Source: an uncultured Ruminococcus sp. | Lineage (GTDB): Bacteria; Bacillota; Clostridia; Oscillospirales; Acutalibacteraceae | Reading direction: 5' to 3' | Length of the DNA: 42,789 nt | Assembly (NCBI GenBank): GCA_902802795.1 | Contig: CADCNI010000024.1 | Location: 1-42,789, forward strand | In this document: positions 5,050-24,229 of the stretch, in pieces | Position numbering within the stretch: the first letter of the stretch is position 1 | Layout of the letters: each line of letters opens with the position of its first letter | Position numbers and translations under genes: made by a program | The notes under the pieces: generated by a model | Told to the model about the DNA's origin: nothing | Seen by the model: the letters and a program-made list of their open reading frames with translations, nothing else | Databases searched by the model: none

Positions 5050-5114
5050 AGACCTAGGAGCATCCTAGGACGTCTAGGATATCGAATATATAAACATCAA
5101 CGAAAAAAAGAATT

Positions 5115-5963: not shown

Positions 5964-5972
5964 GGAAAGAAG

Positions 5973-6422: not shown

Positions 6423-6434
6423 CTGCGATTCGGA

Positions 6435-6465: not shown

Positions 6466-6474
6466 AAAAAACAA
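6445..6474 (-). promoter_or_regulatory. Bacteroidota promoter of the HsdR_N-like gene (TTG-N19-TATCTTTG)
   Basis: On the minus strand TTG (6474-6472) is followed after exactly 19 bases by TATCTTTG (6452-6445). This is the best consensus sigma-ABfr promoter in the left half. It lies 23 bp before the ATG at 6422. Confidence 0.75.
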
Positions 6475-6475
6475 C

Positions 6476-7534
6476 ATGGCCGAAGCAAAAAATGCGAGTT
6501 TTGAGCACATCATGAAAGAGCTGGAGGCGAGGAAGTTCGTCCCCGTCTATTACCTGATGGGCGACGAATCGTACTATATAGACCGTATTGCGGACTATAT
6601 CGCCGAGCATGTGCTTCAGCCAGAAGAACGTGACTTCAACCAGACCGTGCTCTTCGGTTCCGATGTGACTGCGTCGCAGATCGTCGATGCCGCCCGTCGC
6701 TATCCGATGATGTCGGAACACCAGGTGATCATCGTCAAGGAGGCCCAGCACGTGCGCAATACAGAGGCCCTGGAACGCTATTTCAAGGCTCCTATGGCCT
6801 CTACCATCCTCGTGATGTGTCATAAGAACGGCAGTATCGACGGACGCAAGAGAGAGTACGTCAAGGCCATCCAGAGCGCTGGTGTGCTCTTTGAGAGCAA
6901 AAAACTCAAGGATAGAGAGCTGCCAGCCTTCATTGAGGGCTATCTGGGGCGGAAAAACATCGAAATAGACGCCAAATCCACCCTGATGATAGCCGAAAAC
7001 ATCGGTTCTGACCTCTCCAGGCTTACCGGAGAGCTGGACAAGCTCATTCTTTCGATATTTGGAGAAAAAGGCGCTGACGGCTCTGAAAACGCGAAAAATG
7101 GACGCATTACTCCCCAGATGGTGGAGGAACAGATAGGGGTGAGCAAGGAATTCAACGGTTATGAGCTCAGAGACGCTCTGATCAACCGAAATGTGTACAA
7201 AGCGAACCTCATCATCAAATATTTTGACGAAAATCCAAAAGCAGGTAGTCTTTACGCTTTTCTCCCGTTGCTCTTTAATTACTTCCAAAATCTGATGATC
7301 GCTTATTATGCACCGAATCATAAGAGTCAGGAAGGGGTAGCAGAGTGGTTGGATATGAAGTCACCCTGGGGTGCCAAGGACTACATGACAGGTATGCGAA
7401 ACTATACCGGATTGAAGGTGATGCAGATTATCTCCAAGATTAGGGAAATAGACGCCAAAAGTAAGGGTCTGGACAACCCAAATACCCCTCCAGGGGAGCT
7501 CATGAAGGAATTGATTTTTTACATTTTGCACTAA
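6476..7534 (+). CDS. holA: DNA polymerase III subunit delta
   Basis: The 352-residue protein matches HolA, the clamp-loader subunit that opens the beta sliding clamp. Recognisable stretches are the N-terminal PVYYLMGDESYYIDRIADYI, TILVMCHKNGSIDGRKREYV (degenerate AAA+ domain), IGSDLSRLTGELDKLIL, and VSKEFNGYELRDALINRN at the start of the C-terminal collar domain. The length is normal for the family. The 3' part of the gene is more AT-rich than the 5' part. A hairpin terminator follows at 7572. Confidence 0.92.
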   Translation: MAEAKNASFEHIMKELEARKFVPVYYLMGDESYYIDRIADYIAEHVLQPEERDFNQTVLFGSDVTASQIVDAARRYPMMSEHQVIIVKEAQHVRNTEALERYFKAPMASTILVMCHKNGSIDGRKREYVKAIQSAGVLFESKKLKDRELPAFIEGYLGRKNIEIDAKSTLMIAENIGSDLSRLTGELDKLILSIFGEKGADGSENAKNGRITPQMVEEQIGVSKEFNGYELRDALINRNVYKANLIIKYFDENPKAGSLYAFLPLLFNYFQNLMIAYYAPNHKSQEGVAEWLDMKSPWGAKDYMTGMRNYTGLKVMQIISKIREIDAKSKGLDNPNTPPGELMKELIFYILH

Positions 7535-7571
7535 AAAGTCAGTTTTTCCCGTTCTAGAATTTTCGATTTTC

Positions 7572-7595
7572 GCGCTTTTCAGAAGCGCTTTTTTT
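7572..7595 (+). terminator. Intrinsic terminator after holA
   Basis: A GCGCTT/AAGCGC stem (7572-7577 with 7583-7588) with a five-base loop is followed by seven T residues. Confidence 0.8.
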
Positions 7596-8308
7596 ATGCT
7601 GAAAACCCAATAAACAGAGGAGGTCTGGGCGATTTCAGACCCCTCAAAACTCGCGTATTTCCAGAATTCCGTCCGATGGTCCAGAATATGCGAGAAATGG
7701 CAAATTCTGGCATTTTCGAGTCGTCAGAATTCAGGTTTCACACTTATTAAGGTTTTGTTTTGGAGATTTCATTTTATAAATTGGAATTTTGAGTGGGCTG
7801 TATTTGGAATTTAAAAGGTAAAATTTGAGATTTGCAAATATATTTTGAATTTTGAATTTAAATACCGAAAGATGAAAATTTCGATTCGCTTTTCTATATA
7901 CATGAATATGCATTCTTATAATATTTGTAATAAGTAGTTAAAGACCAAGCAATTATGAAAATCTGCTTAAAAATGGTTCATATTTACAAACCCGTTTAGC
8001 CTATCAGGACTGTATAAGGTGACGGATTCCATATAGTTTTGTGTAAATACCCTATTTATAGTCAGTTTTTTACAAAAATACGCTTTATATTATCTTTGTA
8101 AAGGTTTGTTTCTATAAATTTACGTTTGTAATTACGAAGCTAAAATTTAGCTTTCTATCTCATTCGATTTGTAAATGTAAAAACGAAAATCAAAAGTTTA
8201 AAATTCTAAATTTTTGCTTCATAGTTTGCACAATTCAAAAATTTGCTTTACCTTTGTAAATCGAAACGAAACCGGTCATTTTTGGCCCTCAAACAGACTT
8301 GAAGCAAC
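7596..8308 (+). other. AT-rich intergenic region before the XRE regulator, no convincing gene
   Basis: This 0.7-kb stretch is very AT-rich. A hairpin at 7617-7645 (GGTCTG/CAGACC core extended by GAGG/CCTC) has no T-run. A second -7-like box TATCTTTG lies at 8091-8098, far from any gene on that strand. A 60-codon frame on the minus strand is low-complexity Lys/Asn/Phe and lacks a ribosome site, so it is not called. The region may be a long leader or a regulatory or partly decayed segment. Confidence 0.5.
8225..8256 (+). promoter_or_regulatory. Bacteroidota promoter of the XRE regulator (TTTG-N20-TACCTTTG)
   Basis: TTTG at 8225-8228 and TACCTTTG at 8249-8256 are separated by 20 bp. They lie about 50 bp upstream of the ATG at 8309. 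Confidence 0.65.
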
Positions 8309-8794
8309 ATGAAGGATCGAATCAGGCAAATTATGGAGTCGCAACATATGACTCAGCAGGTCTTCGCCGACTACATCGGGTTGGCCCCTGCAACCCTTAG
8401 TAGTATCTTCAACGGACGCACCCGCCCTACCCTTAATGTGGTTGAGGCGCTCAAGAGAAAAATTCCTAACATCAATTTCGACTGGCTCATGTTAGGTGTC
8501 GGACCGATGTATATCGACCAGCCGATTGATGAGGCAGCCGCAGAGCCAGCGGACGACCATCAGGAACCGAGACCCAGGATCGAAAATCCGATGCTCGATT
8601 TTGATCAGAGTCCATCGCCTACCCCGCAAAGTGCCCCTCAGCGCGTTGCTTTTGTTAATAGTGTCAGAAGTACACGTCCGGAAACCGAAAGAGAGGATTT
8701 GAAAATAATTGACAAACCACAAAGGAAGGTTATTGAAATACGCGTATTTTATGATGATCAGACGTGGGATACGTTTGTACCCGCGAAGAAATAA
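8309..8794 (+). CDS. XRE-family helix-turn-helix regulator
   Basis: The 161-residue protein has an N-terminal HTH_3/XRE domain (about residues 2-60). Its two helices read MTQQVFADYIGLAPATLSSI, with the recognition helix in APATLSSIFNGRTRP. A Pro/Asp-rich linker (about residues 70-115) follows, then a short C-terminal segment (RKVIEIRVFYDDQTWDTFVP) that may be a dimerisation or effector part. The DNA target is not known; the AT-rich upstream region and its own promoter are candidates for autoregulation. Lone regulators of this form are frequent in Prevotella. A palindrome that may terminate this transcript begins 35 bp after the stop. Confidence 0.85.
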   Translation: MKDRIRQIMESQHMTQQVFADYIGLAPATLSSIFNGRTRPTLNVVEALKRKIPNINFDWLMLGVGPMYIDQPIDEAAAEPADDHQEPRPRIENPMLDFDQSPSPTPQSAPQRVAFVNSVRSTRPETEREDLKIIDKPQRKVIEIRVFYDDQTWDTFVPAKK

Positions 8795-8807
8795 GACCCC
8801 TCATAAA

Positions 8808-8839
8808 TTTGGTTTTTCGCCCACTTATTCGTATCTTTG
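8808..8839 (+). promoter_or_regulatory. Bacteroidota promoter of pyrK-pyrD (TTTG-N20-TATCTTTG)
   Basis: TTTG at 8808-8811 and TATCTTTG at 8832-8839 are spaced by 20 bp. The -7 box sits in the left arm of a perfect palindrome (see 8830-8869). Confidence 0.7.
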
Positions 8840-8869
8840 TGCCCAAAAAGGACAAAGATACGTTTTTTT
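8830..8869 (+). terminator. Perfect 11-bp palindrome plus T7 overlapping the pyrK -7 box
   Basis: CGTATCTTTGT (8830-8840) and ACAAAGATACG (8852-8862) are perfect inverted repeats with an 11-base loop, followed by T7 and then the pyrK ATG. Read-through RNA from the upstream regulator gene would form a terminator-like hairpin. Transcripts starting from the promoter inside the left arm would lack that arm. The arrangement could isolate pyrK-pyrD from upstream transcription. Confidence 0.6.
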
Positions 8870-9643
8870 ATGAAGAAGTTTTTGCTCGATTTGAGCGTTA
8901 AATCCGTTGAACAGATCCATCAGCGCTACGTGCTCATCAAACTGACAGACGAAAAACCCCTGCCGAAGATGTTGCCGGGCCAGTTTGTCGAGGTGCGTGT
9001 CGATGGTTCTCCCGCCACATTCCTGCGTCGTCCTATCTCCATCAACTATGTCGATGAGGCCCAGAATGAGCTCTGGCTGTTGGTGGCTACCGTCGGAGAA
9101 GGCACGCGCAAAATGGCCAGTCTGAAGGCTGGTGATGTGATGAACTGCGTTTTGCCCTTGGGTAATGGTTTTACGCCCGCGAAAAACGGTGAGAAAGTGC
9201 TGTTGATAGGTGGAGGTGTCGGTGTGGCACCATTGCTCTATATGGGTGCCCAGATGCAGCAGTCAGGCCTGGAACCCACATTCCTCTTGGGTGCTCGTAC
9301 GGCAGGCGACCTGCTGATGCTCGAAGAATTTAAGCGGTACGGGCGCGTGTACGTGACGACAGAAGACGGTTCTGCAGGTGAGAAGGGATTTGTGACCCAT
9401 CACAGTCTGCTCCAGCAAGAGACCTTCGATCGCATCAGTTGTTGCGGTCCTACGCCGATGATGAAGGCCGTCGCCCGTCTGGCGCGTGAGAAAGGCATTG
9501 CCTGTGAGGTATCGTTGGAGAATCTGATGGCCTGTGGCGTAGGAGCCTGTCTCTGTTGTGTGGAGAAGACCACCGAGGGAAATTTGTGTGTATGTAAGGA
9601 CGGACCAGTGTTTAATATAGAACAATTGCTATGGCAGATTTGA
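8870..9643 (+). CDS. pyrK: Dihydroorotate dehydrogenase B, electron-transfer subunit
   Basis: The 257-residue PyrK carries FAD and a [2Fe-2S] cluster and passes electrons from PyrD to NAD+ in pyrimidine synthesis. Visible motifs are the FAD-binding FLRRPISI, the NAD-binding [27 protein letters not shown] and the C-terminal cysteine cluster CGVGACLCC...[12 protein letters not shown] 8870 ([10 protein letters not shown]) is chosen over an upstream in-frame start because that one lies in the promoter palindrome. The gene overlaps pyrD by 13 bp, giving a pyrK-pyrD operon. Confidence 0.95.
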
Positions 9644-10536
9644 ATGTGAAGATTGGCGCACTGGCGCTGAAGAATCCCGTGATGACCGCTTCAGGCACCT
9701 TCGGCTATGGGTTGGAGTTTGCCGATTTCATGCCCCTTGACGGGATTGGTGGCATCATCGTGAAAGGAACGACCCTGAAGCCCCGTGAGGGCAACGACTA
9801 TCCCCGTATGGCAGAGACCCCTTCAGGGATGCTCAACTGCGTGGGATTGCAGAACAAGGGTGTCGATTACTTCTGTGAGCATATCTATCCGCAGATTAAG
9901 GATATCGATACGAATATGATCGTCAATGTCAGCGGTTCTTCGCCAGAGGACTATGCCGAATGTGCCGCCCGCATCGACGCGTTGGACAAGATTCCCGCGA
10001 TAGAGCTGAATATCAGTTGTCCGAACGTGAAAGACGGTGGAATGGCCTTTGGTGTGACCTGTGCTGGGGCTGCGAGTGTGGTGAAGGCCGTGCGTGCCCG
10101 TTATCACAAGACGCTCATCGTGAAGCTCTCGCCCAACGTGACGGATATCCGTGAGATTGCGAAGGCCGTAGAAGGGGAGGGTGCCGATAGTGTGTCGCTC
10201 ATCAACACCCTGATGGGAATGGCTATTGATATCGAGCGTCGTAAGCCGTTGCTGAGTATCAATACAGGTGGTCTGAGTGGTCCGGCTGTGAAGCCTGTAG
10301 CCCTGCGTATGGTGTGGCAGGTGGCGAAGGCTGTGAAGATTCCCGTCGTGGGACTGGGAGGCATCTGTACGGCAGAGGATGCCATTGCCTTTATGATGGC
10401 GGGAGCGACGGCGATAGAGATCGGAACGGCGAATTTCCTGGATCCGGCTGTCTCGATTAAGGTTCGGGATGGGATTCATGAGTGGTTGGAAAATCATAAA
10501 ATCTCTTCGGTGCAAGAGATTATTGGTATAGTATAA
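9631..10536 (+). CDS. pyrD: Dihydroorotate dehydrogenase B (NAD+), catalytic subunit
   Basis: The 301-residue class 1B enzyme oxidises dihydroorotate to orotate using FMN. Diagnostic features are [13 protein letters not shown] near the N-terminus, the catalytic base Cys130 in [13 protein letters not shown] (class 1 enzymes use Cys where class 2 use Ser), [21 protein letters not shown] and the phosphate-binding [14 protein letters not shown]. The gene pairs with the overlapping upstream pyrK, as class 1B requires. Its 3' end runs into a series of hairpins before the convergent aroC. Confidence 0.96.
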
Positions 10537-10541
10537 TCTCT

Positions 10542-10764
10542 TGCAGGGTTTCACCCTGCAGGGTCACCATCAACCCCAACCCCTTCTTGTCCTTAAGAAG
10601 GGGCTTCAGACCACTCCCCAAACCCCTCGCCAATCTTTGGCAAGGGGCTTAACTGAAAATCACGGGCGACCGCTGATTTTCAGAGCTCATTAAGGTAAAA
10701 TCGACCATCAAAGGTCGATTTTTGTTTTTTTATAAAATTTGAGGGCTGCCAATCGGCAGCCCTC
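10542..10764. repeat. Array of six hairpins between convergent pyrD and aroC
   Basis: Six consecutive inverted repeats are visible: 10542-10560 (8-bp stem, TGCAGGGT), 10580-10603 (9 bp, CCCCTTCTT), 10623-10647 (10 pairs, one mismatch), 10653-10683 (10 bp, CTGAAAATCA), 10697-10722 (10 bp, AAAATCGACC) and 10741-10764 (10 bp, GAGGGCTGCC). The stems differ in sequence. The rest of the 367-bp gap (to 10903) is AT-rich with no gene. Confidence 0.75.
10697..10731 (+). terminator. Intrinsic terminator of the pyrK-pyrD operon
   Basis: A ten-base stem AAAATCGACC/GGTCGATTTT with a six-base loop runs directly into a T-rich tract. It is the most terminator-like hairpin of the array and may work in both directions. 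Confidence 0.7.
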
Positions 10765-10903
10765 AACCAACACAAAAACTAAACTAGACTTAACTAAAGC
10801 ATGTTGGGATTTTCACAAACCCCCAAATGCTGTTGCAAATATACGATATATTTTGGAAAATCCCAAAAAATATTGGAATAATTTTCCGTAAAATATGCAA
10901 ATG

Positions 10904-11980
10904 TTACCCTTTATATCCATTTTTTAACAGATAAAAGTCCAAAATCGTCATTGCAGCCATTGCTTCCACGATAGGTACGGCTCTTGGTAGTACACAGGGA
11001 TCGTGACGCCCGCGAGCTGTGAAAGTAGTGGGATTTCCCTCCAGATCGACCGTCTCCTGTTCTGTGAGAATCGTAGCCACCGGTTTGAAGGCCACGCGGA
11101 AGTAGATGTCCTGTCCGTTGGAGATGCCGCCCTGAATGCCTCCACTGTGGTTGGTGGCTGTCGTGATGCGCCCCTCCTCGCAGCGGAACACGTCGTTCTG
11201 GCTGCTGCCTTTGGCCGTGACGCCTGCGAAGCCCTCACCATATTCGAAACCCTTCACGGCGTTGATGCTGAGCATCGCCTGACCTAAGGCAGCATGGAGT
11301 TTGTCGAACTCCGGTTCGCCCAGTCCTGCGGGACAGCCCGTGACGACGCCTGTGATGATACCGCCGATGGTGTCGCCCTCAGCCTTCACCTCCTTGATCA
11401 GTGCCTCCATCTGAGCCGCTTTCTCGGGGTCAGGACAGCGCACGGCGTTCTGTTCCGTCAGCGTGAGGTCATAGTGGCGATAGTCGTGTTCCAAGGCGAT
11501 GTGCCCCACTTGTGAGGTATAAGCCTTGACGCTGATGCCCAGTTGTCGGAGGGCCAGTTTGGCCAGTGCCCCGCCCACACAGCGGCTGATGGTGATACGT
11601 GCCGACGAACGGCCGCCTCCACGATGATCACGTACGCCGTATTTCTCCTTGTAGGTGAAGTCAGCGTGAGAAGGACGGAACAGACAGCGCAGATTCTCAT
11701 AGTCCTGCGAGTGCTGATTGGTGTTACGTACGATGAATCCGATGGGACAGCCCGTCGATTTGCCTTCAAAGACACCGCTGAGCAGTTCGACCTTGTCAGC
11801 CTCCTGACGGCTGGTGGTGATGCTGCTTTGTCCTGGGCGACGACGGTCGAGTTCCTGCTGTATGAAGTCGAGATCGATGTCGATGCCAGCCGGCATACCG
11901 TCGATGACGCCTCCTACTGCAGCCCCGTGACTCTCGCCAAAGGTGGTCAGTGTGAATAGGTTACCGAATGTATTACGCAT
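10904..11980 (-). CDS. aroC: Chorismate synthase
   Basis: The 358-residue enzyme makes chorismate from 5-enolpyruvylshikimate-3-phosphate using reduced FMN, the last step of the shikimate pathway. The three family signatures are present: [18 protein letters not shown] near the N-terminus, the central [15 protein letters not shown], and the C-terminal [24 protein letters not shown]-type start residues ([19 protein letters not shown]) support ATG 11980. The slyD-like gene lies just 9 bp upstream on the same strand, so the two are probably co-transcribed. Confidence 0.97.
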
Positions 11981-11989
11981 AGTCAGAGA

Positions 11990-12610
11990 TTAGTGATGAC
12001 AGTGTCCGCAGCCGCCGCCTTTGCCATGATGACCGCAGCCTTCGCCTTCGCCATGATGTCCGCAACCCTCACCTTCACCGTGATGACCGCAGCCGCCACA
12101 GCCCTCACAACCGCCAGTCAGGTGCTTGATCAGGTGTTGTACCTCCTCGTCAGTAGCCTTGCGGTTTTCCTTGACCTCACCAGTGAAGTTCAGTCGTTTG
12201 CCAGCCAGCGGGTGGTTGGTGTCCACCGTGACGCTGTCGGCCTCTATCTTCACCACCTTTGCCATGAAGTGGTGATCGTCGTTGTCGGTGAGGGTGATGA
12301 CGGCCCCCTCATAGATATTATCGCTGTCGAACTTGCCGTTGACGGTGAAGATCTCGCGTCCGAGCTGGTGCTTTCCCTCTGGCACGTAGTCGCCGAAGGC
12401 CTCTGCCGGCTCCAGGGTGAAGTCGAAGCTGTCGCCCTTGGCGTGCTTCATGAGTTCCTCCTCGAAACGGTCGAGGGCTACGCCGAAGCCGGTGATAAAC
12501 TCAAACGGGCGCTCGTCGCCAGTCTGCTCCTCCAGTTGCTTGCTGCCATCCTGAGCGATGGTGTAAAGCTGATATACGACAGAAACGAATCTGTTTTCTG
12601 GTTTCTCCAT
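11990..12610 (-). CDS. SlyD-like FKBP-type peptidyl-prolyl isomerase with His/Cys metal tail
   Basis: The 206-residue protein has the SlyD arrangement: FKBP half-domain (GDERPFEFITGFG...LDRFEEELMKHAKGDSFDFTLEPAEAFGDY), an inserted IF chaperone domain (about residues 75-130) and the return FKBP segment DTNHPLAGKRLNFTGEV. The tail (about residues 166-206) is almost only Gly, Cys, His and Glu and contains GCGHHGEGE-type repeats, a likely nickel, zinc or copper site. In E. coli, SlyD assists folding and nickel delivery to hydrogenase; here metal storage or delivery is inferred only. The gene is followed by aroC 9 bp downstream. Confidence 0.92.
   Translation of the reverse strand: MEKPENRFVSVVYQLYTIAQDGSKQLEEQTGDERPFEFITGFGVALDRFEEELMKHAKGDSFDFTLEPAEAFGDYVPEGKHQLGREIFTVNGKFDSDNIYEGAVITLTDNDDHHFMAKVVKIEADSVTVDTNHPLAGKRLNFTGEVKENRKATDEEVQHLIKHLTGGCEGCGGCGHHGEGEGCGHHGEGEGCGHHGKGGGCGHCHH
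12014..12094 (-). repeat. 27-bp tandem repeats coding the GCGHHGEGE tail of the SlyD-like protein
   Basis: Three consecutive nine-residue units (GCGHHGEGE twice, then GCGHHGKGG) are encoded by near-identical 27-bp units, followed by a partial unit GCGHCHH. Copy number may vary between strains. Confidence 0.8.
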
Positions 12611-12644
12611 ACCTTATTATATATATATTGATTATATTTGGCCA

Positions 12645-12652
12645 CAAAGGTA
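12645..12652 (-). promoter_or_regulatory. Bacteroidota -7 box (TACCTTTG) before the slyD-like gene
   Basis: On the minus strand TACCTTTG lies 34 bp upstream of the ATG at 12610. No good -33 element is seen. It would drive slyD-like and aroC. Confidence 0.55.
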
Positions 12653-12773
12653 CATATTTTCCTTGATAAAAGGGGCGGTTTAAGGCAAAAAACTTAAAAA
12701 ATGTGTATTTTTACCGATTCTTTGACCTTTGTCAATAAATGGGCTGTTATCGCACACAATTTTCCAGAAAAGC

Positions 12774-12804
12774 TTGTGAGGTTGCAAAAATCGTCGTACC
12801 TTTG
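12774..12804 (+). promoter_or_regulatory. Bacteroidota promoter (TTG-N20-TACCTTTG) of the small secreted protein gene
   Basis: TTG at 12774-12776 and TACCTTTG at 12797-12804 are spaced by 20 bp. The promoter would produce an mRNA with a leader of about 130 bases. Confidence 0.7.
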
Positions 12805-12810
12805 CAGCGT

Positions 12811-12940
12811 CAAAACAAAACAAGAGCTGCCCGAAAGCGGGTAAGCAGCGCCAGCCAAAGAGCTGCGCAACAGGATAACATTATTAAAGTAAGAGCGGCC
12901 CAACACACCGCTCCGAGTAAAGAAAAGAAAGGGTAAAAAG
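12811..12940 (+). other. Structured 5' leader of the small secreted protein gene
   Basis: The leader between promoter and ATG contains two hairpins. One is 12826-12849 (GCTGC/GCAGC closing CCG-AAAG-CGG, with a GTAA bulge). The other is 12893-12913 (GAGCGG/CCGCTC). It ends in a purine-rich stretch before the ATG. A 65-codon frame through the promoter is not credible as a gene. Confidence 0.45.
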
Positions 12941-13303
12941 ATGAAAAAGATGTTTTTGACATTAGTAGCAATGCTGAGTATGACAACCGCATTTGCAGAA
13001 GGTGAGAACGCAGCCAGTGTTAACACTCTTGAGGCTTATGAGTTGAATGTCAATATGAATAAGCTTTCAAGCGCACTGAACCTGGCAGACGACCAGAAAG
13101 AGGCCGTTGCTGATATCCACCACACGTTTGCATCAGAACTGATGTTCGCTGCACAGTACAACAACGACGATCGCAAGGCTCTCGTGAACCGCGCTATCGA
13201 GAACGATGTCAAGTGGATGCGCTACGTGCTCAATGACAAGCAGATGCGTACTTATCTCACACTGCTCAACACAACGATCAACAATCGTGGTCTGAACAAG
13301 TAA
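12941..13303 (+). CDS. Small secreted protein of unknown function
   Basis: The 120-residue product has a clear Sec signal peptide (MKKMFLTLVAMLSMTTAFA, cleavage likely after residue 19). The mature part is a helix-rich, charged domain of about 100 residues: LEAYELNVNMNKLSSALNLADDQKEAVADIHHTF and KALVNRAIENDVKWMRYVLNDKQMRTYLTLLNTT. I do not recognise a named family. The 'L-x-L-x2-x-Q...KQ...Y' helical layout resembles small Bacteroidota periplasmic proteins with LTxxQ-like segments, but that is only an impression. It has its own promoter, a structured leader and a strong terminator, so it is probably monocistronic and well expressed. Confidence 0.8.
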   Translation: MKKMFLTLVAMLSMTTAFAEGENAASVNTLEAYELNVNMNKLSSALNLADDQKEAVADIHHTFASELMFAAQYNNDDRKALVNRAIENDVKWMRYVLNDKQMRTYLTLLNTTINNRGLNK

Positions 13304-13337
13304 GAAAATTAGTAGTAATTAGTAGTATGATTAGTAT

Positions 13338-13372
13338 GGGGGACGTTCCGGGAGGACGTCCCTCATTTTTTT
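13338..13372 (+). terminator. Intrinsic terminator after the small secreted protein gene
   Basis: GGGACGT (13340-13346) pairs with ACGTCCC (13356-13362), extendable by two pairs, and is followed by seven T residues. Confidence 0.85.
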
Positions 13373-13380
13373 GCCGAAAA

Positions 13381-13412
13381 TTTGCCAGTCTCGGATTTTT
13401 TTGCTTATTTTG
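13381..13412 (+). promoter_or_regulatory. Bacteroidota-type promoter of the M48 gene
   Basis: TTTG at 13381-13384 and TATTTTG at 13406-13412 are spaced by 21 bp. They lie 27 bp before the ATG at 13440. This is a moderate match. Confidence 0.5.
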
Positions 13413-13439
13413 CAGTCAGAAACCAATTAATTAAAAAAA

Positions 13440-14354
13440 ATGAAGCATTTTAAGATTTTCCTATTGTCGCTGGTAGCTGCCGTTCTCGTCAGTTGCGGTG
13501 GTACCATGAAGACCGTGCCCATCACAGGGCGCCAGCAGTCGCTGATGGTGAGCGATGGTGATATCCTGAGCCTATCCACCCAGCAGTATTCAGAGTTCAT
13601 GAAGAGCGCCAAGCTCTCCACCAATGCCGAGAACACGGCGATGGTGAGGCGAGTGGGGCAGAACCTGGCCACCGCAGTGACCGCCTATCTGAAAGCTGCC
13701 GGCATGCAGGACGACCTGCAGTACTATAAGTGGCAGTTCAACCTCGTGCAGAGCAATGAGGTCAATGCCTGGTGTATGCCTGGCGGACTGATCTGCGTCT
13801 ATGAGGGCATCCTGCCCGTCACCAAGGACGAGGCCTCGCTGGCCATCGTGCTCGGCCATGAGATCGCCCACGCCGTAGCCCGTCACTCTGCCGAGCAGAT
13901 GAGCACCAAGATGAAGCAGCAGTACGGTGTGCAGACACTCGGCTCGCTGGCCAGCGTCCTCGGCATCGGCAGCAGTGCCGTATCCGTCGGACAGGCCATC
14001 GCCGCCCAGGGACTGAACTTCGCCAACCTGAAGTACTCGCGCAACCATGAGAGCGAGGCCGACCACATGGGACTGATCTTCGCCGCTATGGCTGGTTACG
14101 ATCCTCAGGTAGCCGTCAGCTTCTGGCAGCGCATGTCGCAGCTCTCGGGCAACAAGCCCGCAGAGTTCCTGAGCGATCACCCCTCCGACGCCACCCGTAT
14201 CCGTCAGATCCAGGGATGGATGCCCGAGGCCCTGAAGTACTACAAGCCTGCCAAGAGCGCCACGACGACCAAGACGCTTAAGATCTCTTCGAAGAAGACG
14301 AGCACCAAGAAGTCTTCCAAGAAGCCCAGCAAAAAAGGCAAAAAGAAGAAGTAA
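13440..14354 (+). CDS. M48-family metallopeptidase lipoprotein
   Basis: The 304-residue protein is a membrane-anchored zinc protease of the M48 (Ste24/LoiP-like) family. The signal sequence ends in a lipobox (LVSC, Cys19). The zinc site is HEIAH (His140, Glu141, His144), with the third ligand in NHESEADHMG (Glu204). The N-terminal flank TMKTVPITGRQQS and VNAWCMPGGLICVYEGIL are also typical. The family degrades damaged envelope proteins. The last 35 residues are a Lys/Ser-rich tail (KKTSTKKSSKKPSKKGKKKK), an unusual addition that may bind nucleic acid or anionic envelope polymers. The gene is complete and followed by a GC hairpin. Confidence 0.92.
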   Translation: MKHFKIFLLSLVAAVLVSCGGTMKTVPITGRQQSLMVSDGDILSLSTQQYSEFMKSAKLSTNAENTAMVRRVGQNLATAVTAYLKAAGMQDDLQYYKWQFNLVQSNEVNAWCMPGGLICVYEGILPVTKDEASLAIVLGHEIAHAVARHSAEQMSTKMKQQYGVQTLGSLASVLGIGSSAVSVGQAIAAQGLNFANLKYSRNHESEADHMGLIFAAMAGYDPQVAVSFWQRMSQLSGNKPAEFLSDHPSDATRIRQIQGWMPEALKYYKPAKSATTTKTLKISSKKTSTKKSSKKPSKKGKKKK

Positions 14355-14396
14355 TATTCACACGAAAATTGAAAACTGAATAGTTACAAAGAACCA

Positions 14397-14420
14397 GGCG
14401 CCCGCGGGCGCCTTCTTTAT
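14397..14420 (+). terminator. Probable terminator after the M48 gene
   Basis: GGCGCCC (14397-14403) pairs with GGGCGCC (14406-14412), giving a very GC-rich stem with a tight loop, followed by a T-rich but interrupted tract. Confidence 0.6.
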
Positions 14421-14433
14421 TTATATTTATGAA

Positions 14434-14580
14434 ATGAAAGCTTTCATTACTGGACTTTTGAAAAATCTCACGCATCCGGCAGGAATTGCCGGGCTAGTCA
14501 TATCCCTCCTGATTCCGTTCCTTGGAACGGCGTTGGGATCGGCCTGCGTGTTCTTCATGCGCGGAAAAACAATCTCATGA
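14434..14580 (+). pseudogene. Truncated N-terminus of a ZIP-family metal transporter
   Basis: ATG 14434 opens a 48-codon frame beginning MKAFITGLLKNLTHPAG. The stretch GLVISLLIPFLGTALGSACV, continuing FFMR, matches the first membrane segment of ZIP-family zinc/iron transporters, which normally continue for about 250 residues. Here the frame runs into a stop (TGA 14578-14580) after FFMRGKTIS. The upstream region has no Shine-Dalgarno, as in the left half. The rest of the gene is missing, and the sequence changes to Clostridia-type coding in another frame. The fragment is best explained as the last Bacteroidota DNA before a chimeric join. Confidence 0.7.
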
Positions 14581-16582
14581 AGAAACTGTGACAGCATCGG
14601 ATTCGGTCATGATTCTGGATGATACCTCGCCAGTTTACAATCTGATTCTTTCGGACGAGCTGTTTGATTATATGAAAGAAAACGATATTGAAATGCTCGA
14701 CCTCATGAATGACTATTTCAATGTCATCATTAATGAAAAGATAGACGAAAACGTGGTCTATATCCGCAATGATCTGCATCAGATGAACGCGGAATTCAAT
14801 CTGGTGGACGTTTATGATCCTTCCAATAAGTTTTCCGCCATCGTCAAAATCGCGGAATATGCCAAACTGGCGGCAGGAATTCCCGAACAGAACGGCAGCA
14901 AGAAGGACGGTACGGAAAAGACCACAGCGGAAAACGAAGAAGTCAAGACAGCCAGAGAAACCGCTCTGGCGGAGATAGCGTCCGGCGCAAAAAAAATTGC
15001 GGATAAAGCCGCGTCCTATACCAAAACGGCGGTGGAAAACGATCTGCTGCAAAAAACGATCGAGATTTACGGAACTTCCATGGAAATCATGGAGGAAGCC
15101 AGCGTGAGCCCTCTGAAATACAAGGATTATTATGTCAAATTTGACGACAGCGGCATTTCCATTGTCTGCGGCTCGCTGGAAAGCGCGTCGGATGCGCTGG
15201 ATTACTTTGTTTATGAATATATTCAGACGGGACATGTCGAAGGAGACTATTTTTTGATTCATGCGCCAAAAACAGAGCTTCACGAGGGAGAGTATCTCAA
15301 GGGAAGCATTGCGGGCGTGTCCCTCGATAATTATCTGATTGAATATGTCCAGACAAAGGAGTATTATGACAGCCAGGAGATTGCCGAATATCTGGAGCAA
15401 TACTTTGTCAAAAATTTTGGTCTGGAAATGTTTGCGGATGATGCTTCACCGAAAGTCTATGAAAAAAAGCGAATCGTCATCGGGCGCACGAATCATCAGG
15501 AAAGTATTGATTTTTATGAAGCCGATCCCGCGCCTGATCTGTTTGATTATCAAATCAGACAAAGCGGAGGGAATCTTTATATATTAGGCGGTTCCGACTG
15601 GGCGATAAAGTACGCGACAGATTATCTGATCAACGAGTATTTTGCCAAGGAAAAAGAGATTCCTAAAGATTTCATTCATTCAGGAAATATCTGCGGTGAA
15701 AATCTGTTCCCAAAAATTGAGGGCGCCAATATTCGCATTATGTCCAACAATGTGTGGGAAAGGTCGTCCAATTCAAGCTCTTGGAGAGACTTGGGGGAAA
15801 ATTGCAGTTATAACGCACGTCTGCCAAAACTGGCAAAGGTGTATGCGATGTACCAGCCGGACGTTCTTTCCTTGCAGGAAATGAGCCTGTATTTTATCAA
15901 CGGACTGGTGGATTCCATCAATCAAACGTGTGAAAATGGCGGAATCAAAGCCAGATACCGTGTGGCGGATTGGCATGTGAAGGGATTGGCGCAGAGAAAT
16001 TACACACCTATCGTCTATAATCAGAATACGCTGACACTGCTGGATACCGGTTCGCATTTGTACGGATACGGTCAGAACCGCAACACCAAGTCCTACACAT
16101 GGGCATGCTTTGAAATCAAAAAGACAAAGCAGAAATTTGTGGTTTATTCCACTCATTTTTGGTGGAAGAGCGATAAGATCTACCCCAACAGTTCCACTTA
16201 CCGCAAAAGACAGATGGCCGAAATCAGTGAGGATTGGAAAAAGCGACAGGAAATCTACCATTGCCCCTGTTTTGTTATGGGCGATATGAACTGTAACTCT
16301 CAATCCAAAGAGTTTAAGTCCCTGATAGGGCTGGGATTTGTGGATTGTTACAGCGAGGCCTCCGAATTCGCCAGAAATACCAGCGGGCGGTTTATCTGCA
16401 ACGTCGAGCGTTTCAGCTACAAGGTCAACAACGGTACATACACCAAAAACGCGCTCGATCACATCGTCGCTTCCAATCTCAAAAAGAACCAGATTCTGGT
16501 GTATGACTATGTGACGCCCAATTTCTTTGGAAAGCTGTCCGATCATGCGCCGGTGTACATTGATGTAAAGATGAAAAATTAA
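14522..16582 (+). CDS. Endonuclease/exonuclease/phosphatase (EEP) family protein, own N-terminus missing
   Basis: The open frame begins at a TTG inside the ZIP fragment, so its first dozen or so residues are probably not native. True sequence likely begins near SSCAEKQSHEET (about 14,550-14,570), possibly just after a lost signal or lipobox. Residues from the start to about 395 form a charged, mostly helical then mixed region with no family I recognise. The C-terminal 290 residues are an EEP/DNase I-like domain: MSNNVW (Asn409), LSLQE (Glu453), GDMN (Asp588, Asn590), LDHI (Asp646, His647) and SDHAPVYID (Asp674, catalytic His675). All core residues are present. The substrate could be nucleic acid, phosphoinositide or another phosphodiester. 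It is followed by a strong terminator. Confidence 0.8.
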   Translation: MERRWDRPACSSCAEKQSHEETVTASDSVMILDDTSPVYNLILSDELFDYMKENDIEMLDLMNDYFNVIINEKIDENVVYIRNDLHQMNAEFNLVDVYDPSNKFSAIVKIAEYAKLAAGIPEQNGSKKDGTEKTTAENEEVKTARETALAEIASGAKKIADKAASYTKTAVENDLLQKTIEIYGTSMEIMEEASVSPLKYKDYYVKFDDSGISIVCGSLESASDALDYFVYEYIQTGHVEGDYFLIHAPKTELHEGEYLKGSIAGVSLDNYLIEYVQTKEYYDSQEIAEYLEQYFVKNFGLEMFADDASPKVYEKKRIVIGRTNHQESIDFYEADPAPDLFDYQIRQSGGNLYILGGSDWAIKYATDYLINEYFAKEKEIPKDFIHSGNICGENLFPKIEGANIRIMSNNVWERSSNSSSWRDLGENCSYNARLPKLAKVYAMYQPDVLSLQEMSLYFINGLVDSINQTCENGGIKARYRVADWHVKGLAQRNYTPIVYNQNTLTLLDTGSHLYGYGQNRNTKSYTWACFEIKKTKQKFVVYSTHFWWKSDKIYPNSSTYRKRQMAEISEDWKKRQEIYHCPCFVMGDMNCNSQSKEFKSLIGLGFVDCYSEASEFARNTSGRFICNVERFSYKVNNGTYTKNALDHIVASNLKKNQILVYDYVTPNFFGKLSDHAPVYIDVKMKN
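14550..14585. other. Probable chimeric junction between Bacteroidota and Bacillota DNA
   Basis: Upstream, genes use TAnnTTTG promoters and lack ribosome sites. Downstream, they use TTGACA/TATAAT promoters and AGGAGG-type sites. The ZIP transporter frame is lost and another protein's headless frame begins in this stretch. Confidence 0.75.
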
Positions 16583-16592
16583 TACATGGATG

Positions 16593-16639
16593 TCCGCGCC
16601 GTTTCCGGAACATTTTGCCGGAATGGCGCGGATTTTTTG
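16593..16639 (+). terminator. Intrinsic terminator after the EEP gene
   Basis: TCCGCGCC (16593-16600) pairs with GGCGCGGA (16625-16632), enclosing an inner TTCCGG/CCGGAA stem, and is followed by six T residues. Confidence 0.88.
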
Positions 16640-16713
16640 TTCGACGAATATCAAGAAAAACGTCACTTTTTTGGGCAATTGGCTGAATATGCTTTGGGAG
16701 AGGGGTTTGGAGG

Positions 16714-16742
16714 TTGACAAAGCCCTGCGGCTGCGATATAAT
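16714..16742 (+). promoter_or_regulatory. Consensus sigma-A promoter of guaB
   Basis: TTGACA (16714-16719) and TATAAT (16737-16742) with a 17-bp spacer are both perfect hexamers. The leader to 16838 is about 90 bases and includes a short AGCGG/CCGCT hairpin. I see no purine-riboswitch core in it. Confidence 0.92.
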
Positions 16743-16775
16743 TTTTGAAATAATATATTTTCGGACAAGCGGTAA

Positions 16776-18320
<1,545 letters not shown>

Positions 18321-18339
18321 TTTTTTCGGTTTTTTACGC

Positions 18340-18409
18340 AAACAAGCGGGTTTTTCTGCGGCCTTATGCGGCGCGCGGAAAAAACCGCTTGTTTCTTTCT
18401 TTTTTTTTG
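18340..18409 (+). terminator. Intrinsic terminator after guaB
   Basis: AAACAAGCGG (from 18340) pairs with CCGCTTGTTT (ending 18394). The stem is extended inward by a T-run/A-run and a GC-rich loop, and is followed by CTTTCT and a nine-base T tract. Confidence 0.88.
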
Positions 18410-18466
18410 TAACAAAAGCCGCATTCCCACGTCTCTTTTTATAGAAGGAAAGGCAGGTGAGATTTT

Positions 18467-18772
18467 ATGAATGATTTTGACGCCATATACCGTGCGTATT
18501 TTCACGATATCTATTACTATCTCAAATCGCTCAGCCGCAGCGACGATGTGGCGGAGGAACTGACGCAGCAGGTATTTTTCAAAGCGCTCGAGGCACTTGA
18601 CCGCTTTCGCGGGGACTGCGATATCCGGATATGGCTCTGCCGCATCGCCAAAAACGAATATATTTCTTATTGCCGCCGAAGCGGGAAAGAGCAGCCGTCA
18701 GAGCTGAGCGAGTGCGAAGCGCAACTAGCGAGCGAATGCGAGCGCGGGGTCCTAGGGGGCAAGGCTCCCTAG
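18467..18772 (+). pseudogene. ECF sigma factor truncated after region 2 by a repeat element
   Basis: ATG 18467 follows a ribosome site (AGGTGAG). The product (101 residues) begins like an ECF sigma-70 factor. Region 2 covers about residues 1-75 (FDAIYRAYFHDIYYYLKSLS, DVAEELTQQVFFKALE, the region 2.3/2.4-like FRGDCDIRIWLCRIAKNEYISY). Normal ECF factors continue through region 4, the -35-binding helix-turn-helix, to about 160-170 residues. Here the frame enters the repeat at 18714 after SGKEQPSELSE and soon stops, so region 4 is missing and the protein should not work as a sigma factor. The anti-sigma-like remnant lies on the far side of the repeat. Confidence 0.75.
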
Positions 18773-18900
18773 CGGGTCAAGGGCAGCGCCCTTGTGGGGA
18801 GTGGGGCAAAGCCCCACGAGTGAGGCGTAGCCGAACGAGCGGAAGATTAAGAAGGCAGTCGGGCGAATACGGATAAGCAAACTCCTCGTATTCGCCCAAC
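18714..18900 (+). repeat. Palindrome-rich repeat element, copy 1
   Basis: About 187 bp align with 39895-40089. Shared landmarks in order: GCGAAGCG, TAGCGAGCGAATGCGAGCG, a GGGGGCAAG palindrome, GCGGGTCAAGGGCAGCGCCCTT, GTGGGGAGTGGGGCAAAGCC followed by CCACGAG, a GGC...GCC hairpin, and a terminal stem GGGCGAATAC...GTATTCGCCC (18861-18870 with 18888-18897). Arms of several palindromes differ between copies but each copy stays self-complementary. It interrupts a sigma/anti-sigma pair. No transposase is seen. Confidence 0.88.
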
Positions 18901-18901
18901 C

Positions 18902-19627
18902 CCGCTGCAAAAGATCAAGCGGCAGATCAGGAAAGATAAGCGGCAGATCGCAGCCGTGGCTGTGGCGGTGATGGCGGGGATTTGTGTCTGGGCGGCGTTT
19001 TTTGTCGGTATGATAGAATTCGACATGTCCTATGGCAGCGTAAAGGACAGAATGGCGGTCGTTTCCGTCAGCGGCTTAACGTGTGATGCAGGGCAAAAGC
19101 CGGAACAGGGCGCACGCATCCTTTACAGCGGAAAGCCGGATTTTCACGGGAATGTCTGTTATGAAGTCACGGGAGAAAAAGACGGCATAAAGCAGGTCGA
19201 GGTCACGATGTATCTGTCGCGCGGCTGGTGGGATATCGCCGATTATTTCGGCAAGGTACGCGAAACAGCGGGCGATATCGACTGGAATCACCTCGGACAG
19301 CCGTATTCTTTGACGGAGCAGATCCAAAGGATGGCGGCGCAGGTGCGGGCGCTGGACGGGCTGCAAGTGATTTATGAGGTGACATCCCCGGAAAGCGGCG
19401 AGGATCATCTGCTGCTGCGGGAAGATATCCGCGAATCTTCCAACGGAAATCAGGGGAACGTAACGATGTATTATGATATCGAATCCTTTGACAAGGCGGA
19501 AGGCGGCGAGATTGTCGCGGTCTATTACGGCAAGTTTAAAGTCAACCGTGCTTCGGAAATCTCCCACAGCGGCAGCCGTCATCTGCTTTGGTCGAAAGAA
19601 GGATTTGACGGACCGATTGAAAAATAG
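18902..19627 (+). pseudogene. Remnant of a membrane-anchored anti-sigma-like protein (N-terminus lost)
   Basis: The frame is open from the end of the repeat: PLQKIKRQIRKDKRQIAAVA and then a membrane segment (about VAVAVMAGICVWAAFFVGMI), followed by an outer domain of about 190 residues. The only early start codons (GTG 18956 and nearby) fall inside the membrane segment, and no ribosome site precedes them. In Clostridia such proteins sit directly after an ECF sigma gene and begin with a zinc-binding zf-HC2 anti-sigma domain. That domain is absent here, replaced by the repeat. The outer part (e.g. MYLSRGWWDIADYFGKVRE) is not a family I can name. The anti-sigma role is inferred from position and topology. 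Confidence 0.6.
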
Positions 19628-19678
19628 TGGAAAAGCGCAAAAAAAGTGAAAAATTAAAATTTAAATTTTTCTGTTGTA

Positions 19679-19719
19679 TTGCAATTGATGTCTGCTTTTA
19701 GTATAATAAAAGCAGACAT
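19679..19719 (+). promoter_or_regulatory. Sigma-A promoter with a perfect 12-bp palindrome around the -10
   Basis: TTGCAA (19679-19684) and TATAAT (19702-19707) have a 17-bp spacer. ATGTCTGCTTTT (19688-19699) and AAAAGCAGACAT (19708-19719) are perfect inverted repeats separated by eight bases that contain the -10. A dimeric repressor bound here would block transcription of the zinc-ribbon genes. A terminator-type hairpin is the alternative reading, but the following T-run is weak. Confidence 0.72.
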
Positions 19720-19793
19720 TCTTTTATGAGGGGAGAAAAGCGGCCCTTCCCACAACGCGAACCCGGTAAATGGCAAAAGAGGCGAATTTTTTC

Positions 19794-20951
19794 ATGGTAT
19801 GTCCCCATTGCGGAAGACGCACCTTTCGAGGTGAAACAATATGCCCCAAGTGCGGCGCGGCAATGCCGCCGAAAAAAAATATGACAGAGGGAGAGAGCTA
19901 TATTATGAACGAAATGTATAACCTGAATGAAAATGCGGTGCCAGGCGAGGACGCCATGTCAGCCGAACCCGTCAAGTCTCCGCTTCCGGAGGAGCCGACG
20001 GACGAGGTCTTTGTGCCTGCCATGGAGTTTCCCACGGAGACGGCCGGTGATGCGTCGGATCTTTCATCCGATGATTTGTCATCCAGTTTCTACGGTTCCT
20101 ATGGGGAGGCCGTGGAAAATATGCCGATGACTGTGTCCGAGGTTCCCGAAGCGACTGCCGAGCCGGAGGAAAGCTCCTTTGCTGTGTCTGAACCTGTTTT
20201 GCCGTCCGACGACGGATTTGAAGATCTTGTGCTGCCGGACGATTTGCCGCCCATTCCCACACCGGCCGCGGACAACACGGTCAAAAAGAGCATGGGCTAC
20301 GAAACGACGGTGAAACTGAAAAACGCCAGGCGTGCCGACAAAAACGAAAAGCCTGTCAACGAGCCGATCAAGACGGAAAGACCCTCCTATACGCCCAAGC
20401 ACCGCGAATTTGACGGCATTGCGTCCGGAACGGCGCATGTCAGCGGAGGATTGCCGGAACTGCGGGACGATCAGATGTATGTTGCGCTGACAAATAAGGA
20501 ACTCCGGCGCCTGAAAAGCCGTCGGTTCAGGGGACTTGGCGTTTTTGCGACGCTTTGTCTGGCAATTATCGCTTCCTTCTGTATCTGGAATTATGTTCAT
20601 TCTTTTGCCGATCCGCTGGTTGGTCGCTGGAAGGGCAACATCGAATCCGCCAATCTTCCTATTGAAGCCATTCAGAGCATGAATGCAAGCAATGTGGATT
20701 CCACGTGGGAATTCGGTGGCAGCGGTTCGCTGTACCTCAACCTTGTTATCAATGAAACGCCCATCAGTCTGAGCGGCAGTTACACCGAAAAAAAGGATGA
20801 AAAAGGAGAACCGTATTTGTCGATGGAGCTGACTAATCCTATGGATTCCAACGCTTATACCTTTAATATGTACTACACCGTCACCGGAACGGTGCTGCAA
20901 TTCAATGACATGGAAGGCTTGGGCATGGAAATTGATCTGACGAAGGAATGA
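19794..20951 (+). CDS. Zinc-ribbon membrane protein with outer G-x-W beta domain (paralog A)
   Basis: The product is about 385 residues. From MVCPHCGRR the cysteines are at 3, 6, 17 and 20 (CxxC-x10-CxxC, a zinc ribbon). A long acidic Glu/Ser/Pro-rich linker (to about 170), a basic region, one membrane segment (about 248-268) and an outer domain beginning GRWKGNIES (277) follow. The outer domain resembles small lipocalin-like beta domains. An in-frame ATG eight codons upstream (19770) exists, but 19794 has a closer ribosome-like GAGGCG and matches the starts of paralogs B and C. Topology is predicted zinc ribbon in, beta domain out. Function is unknown; signal sensing across the membrane is speculation. 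It is first in a row of three such genes, only 6 bp before B. Confidence 0.75.
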   Translation: MVCPHCGRRTFRGETICPKCGAAMPPKKNMTEGESYIMNEMYNLNENAVPGEDAMSAEPVKSPLPEEPTDEVFVPAMEFPTETAGDASDLSSDDLSSSFYGSYGEAVENMPMTVSEVPEATAEPEESSFAVSEPVLPSDDGFEDLVLPDDLPPIPTPAADNTVKKSMGYETTVKLKNARRADKNEKPVNEPIKTERPSYTPKHREFDGIASGTAHVSGGLPELRDDQMYVALTNKELRRLKSRRFRGLGVFATLCLAIIASFCIWNYVHSFADPLVGRWKGNIESANLPIEAIQSMNASNVDSTWEFGGSGSLYLNLVINETPISLSGSYTEKKDEKGEPYLSMELTNPMDSNAYTFNMYYTVTGTVLQFNDMEGLGMEIDLTKE

Positions 20952-20957
20952 TAAACG

Positions 20958-21863
20958 ATGTATTGTAATCAGTGCGGAGCGAAGATCGACAGTAAAGACA
21001 AGTTCTGTCCCGGCTGCGGCAGACCCGTCCAGCCGTCCGCAGCCGGCGGAAATTCCCAGTCCGGCCAAGCCCCTTATGTGAACCAAGGCTCTCAGGCCAG
21101 ACAAGCACCTTACGCGAACCAAGGCCCCCGTCCGACGGCTCCCTCCGCCAATGCGGAACGGCAGAACAGACCCTCATCGGGGATGAGTCCGGAAAACGTC
21201 AGATATGTACAGGTGGATCCCAAGACGGGAAAAATTGCTTCACTGCCTCACGGCAAATCCCGTTCCGAATCCTTTATGCAATGGATGACGATCGCGTTTA
21301 TTGCCATCGGACTGGTGATCGTGATGGTGGCCGGTTCCATGTTTATTTCGGGATATATGGTCAAAAGCGTCTTTGCCGACAATGTGGTTTCCCGTCCCAT
21401 GGATGACTTTGTGACGACAGAGGAAGAGACGGCGGTCAGTTCCGAACAGGAACCCGTTTCGTCGGAGGAAGAAATTGTTTCGGAAACACCGGTTTCTTCG
21501 GATTATGATGTATCCTCTCAGGAAGAATCCGCCGTTCCCGAAAAACTGCGCGCCTCCTATATTCAAAGTCGTTTAAAGGGAAAATGGACTACCAGTATTC
21601 CTTATAAATCCATGTCGCTTCCGGCCACTTTTGTGTTTGACGGCAAGGGCAAGTGTAGCTGTGAAATGAAAGCATTGTTTATTACCAAGAAATTTGACGG
21701 CACTTACACGGTCAAGGATGGCGGTCAATGCGCTATTACCTTAAACGGTCTGGAAGAATATGTCAGCGACGGCAACACGCTGGAAGGCGATATTGAAATC
21801 GTCAGAGACGATAAGATTTATTTTACAGTCGGGAATGTAGTGTGGGAGTTAAACAAAGCGTAA
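20958..21863 (+). CDS. Zinc-ribbon membrane protein with outer G-x-W beta domain (paralog B)
   Basis: The 301-residue protein has the same plan as paralog A. Zinc ribbon MYCNQCG...FCPGC has cysteines at 3, 6, 17 and 20. A Gln/Pro/Gly-rich linker holds two QAPYxNQG units (about residues 38-55). One membrane segment lies at about 109-132, then a Ser/Glu-rich stalk (SSEQEPVSSEEE), then an outer domain starting GKW (208-210) with a FDGTYTVKDGG strand motif and ending in a hydrophobic strand. A ribosome site (AAGGAATG) lies in the end of paralog A, so the two genes are co-expressed. Many Bacillota encode zinc-ribbon membrane proteins of unknown role; no function can be assigned. Confidence 0.78.
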   Translation: MYCNQCGAKIDSKDKFCPGCGRPVQPSAAGGNSQSGQAPYVNQGSQARQAPYANQGPRPTAPSANAERQNRPSSGMSPENVRYVQVDPKTGKIASLPHGKSRSESFMQWMTIAFIAIGLVIVMVAGSMFISGYMVKSVFADNVVSRPMDDFVTTEEETAVSSEQEPVSSEEEIVSETPVSSDYDVSSQEESAVPEKLRASYIQSRLKGKWTTSIPYKSMSLPATFVFDGKGKCSCEMKALFITKKFDGTYTVKDGGQCAITLNGLEEYVSDGNTLEGDIEIVRDDKIYFTVGNVVWELNKA

Positions 21864-21908
21864 TTTTCAGACGCGATTTTTGGCAATATTTTGTGAGGTA
21901 GATTTGAT

Positions 21909-23120
21909 ATGAGATGTCCCAAGTGCAATCTTGAATTGAATCCGCTTTCGGAAAGATGCCCGAATTGCGGCACCTCCGCCAGACGCGCCAAGCCTGACGG
22001 GGATACGATGACCAGAGTGCGCCGACAAATTGCCGTTGTCCGGGGAGAACGTGAGGTTTCCGACGAGGATTTGTCGGACGCCTCTTTTTCTCCTGTGCTC
22101 AAATTCGATCGGCCCGACGAGAAGAAGGAACCCCAGGAAACCGCAGGGCAGCAGGAGGCGATCCCCGGCAATCCTGCGGACAATTTTGAAACTCCCGCCT
22201 TTACGCCGGTGGATATCATCGACATGGTGGAATACGACAGCGAAAGCGAAGCGCAGCGGCGGCACAGAAATCTTGCCTCCAGCATCCGCCACATCCAGCG
22301 CAACAAAGAGGACGATCTGCTGGCGGCGTATTATTTTAAGGACGGCATTTCCGATCTGGAACGGCTTCAATTGGAGCGCAGCTTTGCGGAGCTGGAAAAA
22401 GAAGAGGCCGAGAGTGCGCGGCACCAAGCATCCGAGGAAGCACCCGCGGCAGCCAATGACGCGCCGCAGGAGGAAGAAATGTCCGAAGCGGCCAAACGGC
22501 TGAGCGTATTTCCCGAAGAAAGCGGTATCGACAAGCTCCTGACCTCCGTTGGAGAAACCTATGACGCGCTGCTTCTCAAGGGAAAACAGCGCGCAGACAG
22601 GCTGGTTCACGGGCGGCTGAGAAAGATTTATGACGGATTTGATCGCCGCACCGCGCCGTTTCTGGATAAACTGCTGGAAAAGTTTTACTACGTAAAATTC
22701 AAGGATATGCGTCGCAGAAAGGCGGATGACACGGCAGAAAAAAGAAAGCTGCGCCGCCATGTGTGGAGCGTTTGCGGCGTACTGCTGGCGGTGGCAGTCT
22801 GTGGGATTTTCTTTTTTATGTCGCTGCTTTCGGAGCCGATCAACGGAAAATGGATCGTATCATATGATGTGGGCGGCGCGCCCAATATTATCATGGAATT
22901 TAAGCCGGGAGGGAGCGCCTCGATATCGGTTCGATCGGAGGACGGCTGGCATATTCATCGGCAGGGACGCTATCAGACGCAGCGCAAAAACGGACATGAC
23001 ATGCTGACCATCACCTATGAGGACGGCAGTGTGTCGCGGTTGTATTACCAGATAGACGGCAAAATCGGCACCTTTATCAATGTCGATACCAACATGGAAA
23101 ACCAATACACAAGAAAATAG
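21909..23120 (+). CDS. Zinc-ribbon membrane protein with outer G-x-W beta domain (paralog C)
   Basis: The 403-residue protein starts MRCPKCNLEL with cysteines at 3, 6, 17 and 20, exactly as in A and B. The cytoplasmic part is long and charged, with a helical stretch around 115-170 and another at about 205-285 (LLKGKQRADRLVHGRLRKIYDGFDR). One membrane segment lies at about 285-307, followed immediately by an outer domain starting NGKWIVSYD (G-K-W at 313-315) with GRYQTQRKNG and a final strand. A ribosome site GAGGT precedes ATG 21909. It is 45 bp after paralog B and probably in the same operon. Function is unknown. Confidence 0.78.
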   Translation: MRCPKCNLELNPLSERCPNCGTSARRAKPDGDTMTRVRRQIAVVRGEREVSDEDLSDASFSPVLKFDRPDEKKEPQETAGQQEAIPGNPADNFETPAFTPVDIIDMVEYDSESEAQRRHRNLASSIRHIQRNKEDDLLAAYYFKDGISDLERLQLERSFAELEKEEAESARHQASEEAPAAANDAPQEEEMSEAAKRLSVFPEESGIDKLLTSVGETYDALLLKGKQRADRLVHGRLRKIYDGFDRRTAPFLDKLLEKFYYVKFKDMRRRKADDTAEKRKLRRHVWSVCGVLLAVAVCGIFFFMSLLSEPINGKWIVSYDVGGAPNIIMEFKPGGSASISVRSEDGWHIHRQGRYQTQRKNGHDMLTITYEDGSVSRLYYQIDGKIGTFINVDTNMENQYTRK

Positions 23121-23217
23121 GTGCGGTTTTTTCATCCGGATTGGCAAGAATGCTTTTAAAATATTACAAATTGCAAATTTATGAAATAATATTACAAACC
23201 AAGAAAGGATCATGGAA

Positions 23218-23727
23218 ATGAATTTTAACGCATTCAATGGCATGGGACAACCAAGGGAGTCCACCTTTGGGGTAAACGAAAACACAGCGGCGGTGCTGAC
23301 GCTCGCAGGCACGGGCGTACTTCTTCTGGTGCCAAAGCTGTGCTGGCTGGCGTGGATTTTACCGCTGGTAGTGTTGATTGTGGAGCGGCAGAGCTTCTAT
23401 GTCAAAAAATGTGCCGCACATGGACTGGCCGCTACGCTGGTGGCTATGGCATTCATGGCGCTGTGCAGTACGCTGTTTGTAGTGTCAGGTACGATGACGG
23501 TTGGCAATCTGATTACCGTTTTGACGCAAAGCGGAGACAAAAGCGACTGGCCTGCGATCATCGGCGCGCTGCTGCTGACGGTGACAGGCATACTGTTCAT
23601 TTTGATTGTCCGGATTGTGTTTGTGGTCTTTCTGGGAATAGCGGCCTACAAGGCATGGCAGTACGGCTACATCAACATTCCGATCGCCTCCGCATTGGTC
23701 AGAAAAATCAATAAAAATTACGTATAA
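23218..23727 (+). CDS. Four-helix membrane protein (DUF4870/Tic20-like), first of a pair
   Basis: The 169-residue protein has four hydrophobic segments (about residues 24-55, 65-90, 110-125 and 125-150) and ends YINIPIASALVRKI. It resembles small DUF4870-type membrane proteins but the match is loose. The next gene is a diverged copy: both have a [ND]EN[TI]AA-start, a first helix pair ending in a VER/MEK turn and an alanine-rich third helix. ATG 23218 is preferred over the ATG two codons earlier because AAAGGA is then about 8 bases away rather than 2. No function is known. Confidence 0.7.
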   Translation: MNFNAFNGMGQPRESTFGVNENTAAVLTLAGTGVLLLVPKLCWLAWILPLVVLIVERQSFYVKKCAAHGLAATLVAMAFMALCSTLFVVSGTMTVGNLITVLTQSGDKSDWPAIIGALLLTVTGILFILIVRIVFVVFLGIAAYKAWQYGYINIPIASALVRKINKNYV

Positions 23728-23778
23728 TCATTTTTATGATAAAAATTACATTTTGTAATAAGCAAGAGGTGCAGACAG

Positions 23779-24210: not shown

Positions 24211-24229
24211 AGATAATAAAGGAGAATGT

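Follow-up and report, generated by a model that had tools for sequence, protein, structure and literature searches.

A Misassembled Contig Joining Prevotella DNA to a Metagenome-Assembled Genome Within a Lipoprotein Gene

The stretch of DNA analysed here (the window) is the whole of contig C24, 42,789 bp long, from G000, a metagenome-assembled genome (MAG) of 2.82 Mb in 99 contigs that is rated 98.2% complete and 1.4% contaminated. With a probability of about 0.96, this contig is a misassembly in which some 14.5 kb of DNA from a RUG108-like Prevotella is fused to about 28 kb of the true genome of the MAG, with the point of fusion within the 5' end of a lipoprotein gene. The chimeric join is thus an assembly artefact, an ordinary misassembly and not a biological feature. 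The conclusion draws on the Prevotella match of the left side, the matches of the right side to the host genus, a second aroC gene of the host kind elsewhere in the assembly, and the displacement of the expected upstream neighbour to another contig that ends in a repeat. A sequence-only reading had already proposed a chimeric join, with a switch at 14,550-14,585; the switch is real and is now placed to 13 bp, at 14,548-14,560, and each homology and synteny test supported the chimeric reading, the two sides matching different source organisms. The same reading had called the sides Bacteroidota and Bacillota, which holds for the left, as Prevotella, while the right has been shown just to belong to a genus other than the Prevotella one. 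The window can be divided as follows.

1..14324, no strand assigned: foreign fragment from a Prevotella of about the RUG108 species, with 97.0% DNA identity to a RUG108 contig over window positions 3-14,324
14325..14547, plus strand: last part of an M48 peptidase gene, whose stop lies at 14,354, a terminator-like hairpin and, from 14,434, the first part of a ZIP-like gene; taken with the left side
14548..14560, no strand assigned: join interval, GTGTTCTTCATGC, which fits both the ZIP gene and the end of the lipoprotein signal
14561..42789, no strand assigned: DNA of the MAG's own genus, from colinearity with the congener G003, guaB, the last long ORF and tetranucleotides
14561..16582, plus strand: lipoprotein gene with an Exo_endo_phos domain (PF03372, Pfam), its start lost

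Two sources in one contig

The left side is colinear, at the identity given above, with a single contig (C57 of genome G030, OMZO01000043.1) of the rumen Prevotella MAG RUG108, a match near the species level. For the M48 peptidase that adjoins the join (13,440-14,354; PF01435, Pfam), no match was found in any of the other 29 genomes around G000, which include 17 from the same genus. The best relative of this peptidase in the genome collection belongs to uncultured Prevotella sp. RUG108, at 97% amino-acid identity, and rumen Prevotella MAGs stood on top among the best 80 of 241 stretches encoding relatives. Pfam confirmed guaB for the right side and, for the left, aroC, pyrD and an ABC/UPF0014 pair; the left-side matches were to chorismate synthase, dihydroorotate dehydrogenase with its Fe-S partner, NIF3, DNA polymerase III delta, and an ABC ATPase followed by a UPF0014 protein. 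G000 contains two copies of aroC: that of the window, 99% identical to the RUG108 gene, and one on contig C59 that is 39% identical to it. The gene is single in all five congeners asked, these likewise standing at 39%, and the C59 copy is of the congener kind.

An intergenic Prevotella repeat lies between pyrD and aroC (10537-10740). Further copies, all partial, occur in RUG108 contig C57, where one stands at the contig's very end, as well as in locus L024 and at both ends of locus L021. The latter (L021:1-3530), filed under the Desulfovibrio MAG RGIG6612, carries a Prevotella-type M48 peptidase (77%) along with this repeat, and is probably a mis-binned contig.

The two close relatives of G000 among its congeners, G003 and G017, both begin to match the DNA of the right side exactly at 14,548, with identities to the two of 87.6% and 85.1% from that position. 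G003 remains colinear at 85-88% up to 28,680, where the compared G003 stretch ends, with a gap at 18,722-18,901. The word at the join, GTGTTCTTCATGC, occurs once in the window; G003 has the identical word at the corresponding position, and G017 differs from it by one mismatch. G000 has a single guaB gene, which shares 99% identity with the G003 gene; the last long ORF of the window is 96% identical in G017 and had no full-length match in five other congeners asked. A 79-bp match (85%) at 39858-39935 to the end of G017 contig C51, distant from the part of the window that is colinear with C51, is perhaps another dispersed repeat or a rearrangement.

The lipoprotein gene itself was matched in all 17 other genomes of the same genus, with 81% amino-acid identity in both G003 and G017; of 12 genomes at greater distance, one gave a weak match. 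The right-hand protein had been suspected of lacking its native start, and the relatives bear this out: in G003 and G017 the signal sequence ends in CMCSSC, and the window retains this end only, with about 68 bp of coding start absent relative to G003 (gene start at 5,550, homology from 5,618). The truncation of the ZIP transporter, previously put at about 43 codons, was likewise recovered, the ZIP-like start being cut after about 44 codons. The abrupt join therefore breaks two genes, both of them within 13 bp.

The displaced neighbour and a proposed mechanism

In 12 of 14 loci from relatives (L004-L017), the lipoprotein gene is immediately preceded, on the same strand, by a flotillin-like gene with a Band_7 domain (PF01145, Pfam). 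The exceptions are L009 (genome G008), where the two genes are apart, and L017, which has no flotillin-like gene in the stretch examined; these two loci count against the explanation favoured here. In G000, the flotillin-like gene is found on contig C62 (12,575-13,969) and is 99% identical to that of G003. C62 is 14,297 bp long and follows G003 as far as 14,147, within the stretch that precedes the lipoprotein gene. By synteny with the congeners, the true neighbour of the right side is thus located elsewhere in the assembly, at the end of C62.

The last 98 bp of C62 (L181:14200-14297) are a repeat present at 19 places in G000, C62 included, with copies near-identical over 83-99 bp. The repeat is MITE-like, with inverted ends (TATGCAGAA...TTCTGCATA), lies also at the start of contigs C30 and C51, and had no copy in the loci of other genomes with which it was compared. 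In the six continuing copies that were examined, the common sequence stops at the last base of C62 and gives way to unrelated DNA. Because C62 ends at a repeat whose copies diverge at that point, the native path was probably lost there. The window contains no C62 suffix of at least 12 bp, and C62 and the window have no common 11-mer near the join; the original connection between them is thus one drawn from synteny, and the absence of overlap fits a contig that ends in a repeat.

These observations are consistent with a sequence of events in which the assembler would have lost the native path at the dispersed repeat that ends C62, the loose right-hand end would have been joined to the ZIP gene through a short common word (GTGTTCTTCATGC, 13 bp or slightly more), and binning would then have gone with the larger, host part of C24. 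Loss of the native junction at the repeat, followed by joining of the loose end to Prevotella-side DNA through this 13-mer, is the probable course. A common word of 13 bp is shorter than the k-mers that assemblers usually use, so that the true common word or the exact mechanism is uncertain.

Problems of this general kind have been described. A passage of the MetaVelvet-DL paper explains that multi-species graphs must be cut where species have sequence in common (PMC8171044), and the two situations are alike in that sequence common to two species connects their paths. That passage concerns evolutionarily similar species (PMC8171044), whereas in C24 the match, of 13 bp or slightly longer, would link genes that are unrelated and come from unrelated organisms. 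In its treatment of contigs, the GUNC paper regards those assembled from fragments of two sources within a MAG as misassemblies, and describes such chimeric misassemblies as relatively rare in comparison with mis-binning (PMC8201837). As far as that definition goes, C24 is the same, combining fragments of two sources in one MAG contig, with no difference in kind.

Composition, promoter style and alternative origins

A comparison of tetranucleotide composition across the switch, which the sequence-only reading had recommended, separated the two sides. The left side correlates with the two halves of the right side at 0.45 and 0.51, while the halves correlate with each other at 0.82. Against 11 sampled stretches of G000, the right halves reach 0.78-0.87 and the left side 0.33-0.56; against its matching RUG108 contig, the left side reaches 0.94. 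Three other RUG108 stretches gave 0.56-0.75 with the left side and 0.56-0.69 with the right halves. Tetranucleotides were rejected as proof of Prevotella origin, being weak for this purpose when other RUG108 stretches reach only 0.56-0.75 with the left side. They show that the left side does not fit G000, and the assignment to Prevotella rests on alignment.

A change of promoter style, from TAnnTTTG on the left to TTGACA/TATAAT on the right, had also been reported and agrees with site counts: six full Bacteroidota-type TTG-N17-21-TAnnTTTG sites on the left (0.3 expected) and two on the right (1.1 expected), and no sigma-70 pairs on the left and four on the right (0.3 expected). The accompanying claim that AGGAGG sites are a trait of the right side failed, with 16 such sites on the left and 13 on the right. 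Shine-Dalgarno-like sites precede two of 15 long ORFs on the left and six of 24 on the right, in a crude ORF set. Ribosome-site style was accordingly discarded as evidence for the join, AGGAGG being no commoner on the right and the Shine-Dalgarno-like sites differing only weakly.

The switch in promoter style at the same place is one of several observations that argue against a genuine recent horizontal transfer, by which at least 14.5 kb of Prevotella DNA would have been placed upstream of the lipoprotein gene. DNA transfers between gut bacteria are known, and the assembled sequence is continuous. The foreign part, however, reaches the end of the contig (its match starts at window position 3) without a return to host DNA, so that the host flanks on both sides expected of a genomic island are not seen within the contig. 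Its content is ordinary chromosomal material (aroC, pyrD, a holA-like gene, NIF3), with colinearity to RUG108 over 14.3 kb; the boundary interrupts two genes, and a Pfam scan of 13 complete left-hand proteins showed no mobility gene among them. Recent transfer is therefore very improbable, and its more specific form, in which at least 14.5 kb of housekeeping DNA from Prevotella would have moved very recently into a gut bacterium unrelated to it and landed in the lipoprotein gene, is slightly more improbable still.

The short stretch at 14,325-14,547, taken here to go with the left side, raises a different question. When its DNA was compared with the fetched loci besides that of the window itself, only short pieces matched. 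The 45-residue ZIP piece by itself gave no Pfam match, and the name of the cut gene rests on a relative: a full ORF that matches Pfam Zip (PF02535) and whose start shares 69% identity with the piece over 26 residues. No close relatives of the ZIP start were listed among 12 Prevotella-side genomes, 30 genomes around and including G000, or 299 genomes of the RUG108 genus. Among the matches listed for these 299, the best by E-value was 53% identical over 36 residues and the highest identity was 77% over 26 residues.

Such results would suit an arrangement of three pieces: Prevotella DNA to about 14,324-14,433, a short ZIP piece from a third organism, and then the host. After the M48 gene the RUG108 sequence differs from the window, and RUG108 has its ZIP-like gene on another contig, with 54% identity over 26 residues. 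A match of 75% over 20 residues comes from a genome of the host family. Against this, six Prevotella loci show five different neighbours downstream of M48, making strain variation an easy reading of the stretch, and the Lys-rich tail of the M48 protein and its stop codon run on past 14,324. One misjoin is also likelier than two within 250 bp. A third source is consequently unlikely, yet it deserves considerably more weight than transfer does, and a single misjoin is preferred.

Consequences for use of the genome

The case of C24 is a warning about data quality, in that a single contig of a well-rated MAG includes about 14 kb from an unrelated organism. C24 should be divided at 14,548-14,560 and its left part removed from the bin. 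Left in place, the Prevotella part, with its second aroC and Prevotella pyrD, could be mistaken for horizontal transfer or for additional metabolism.
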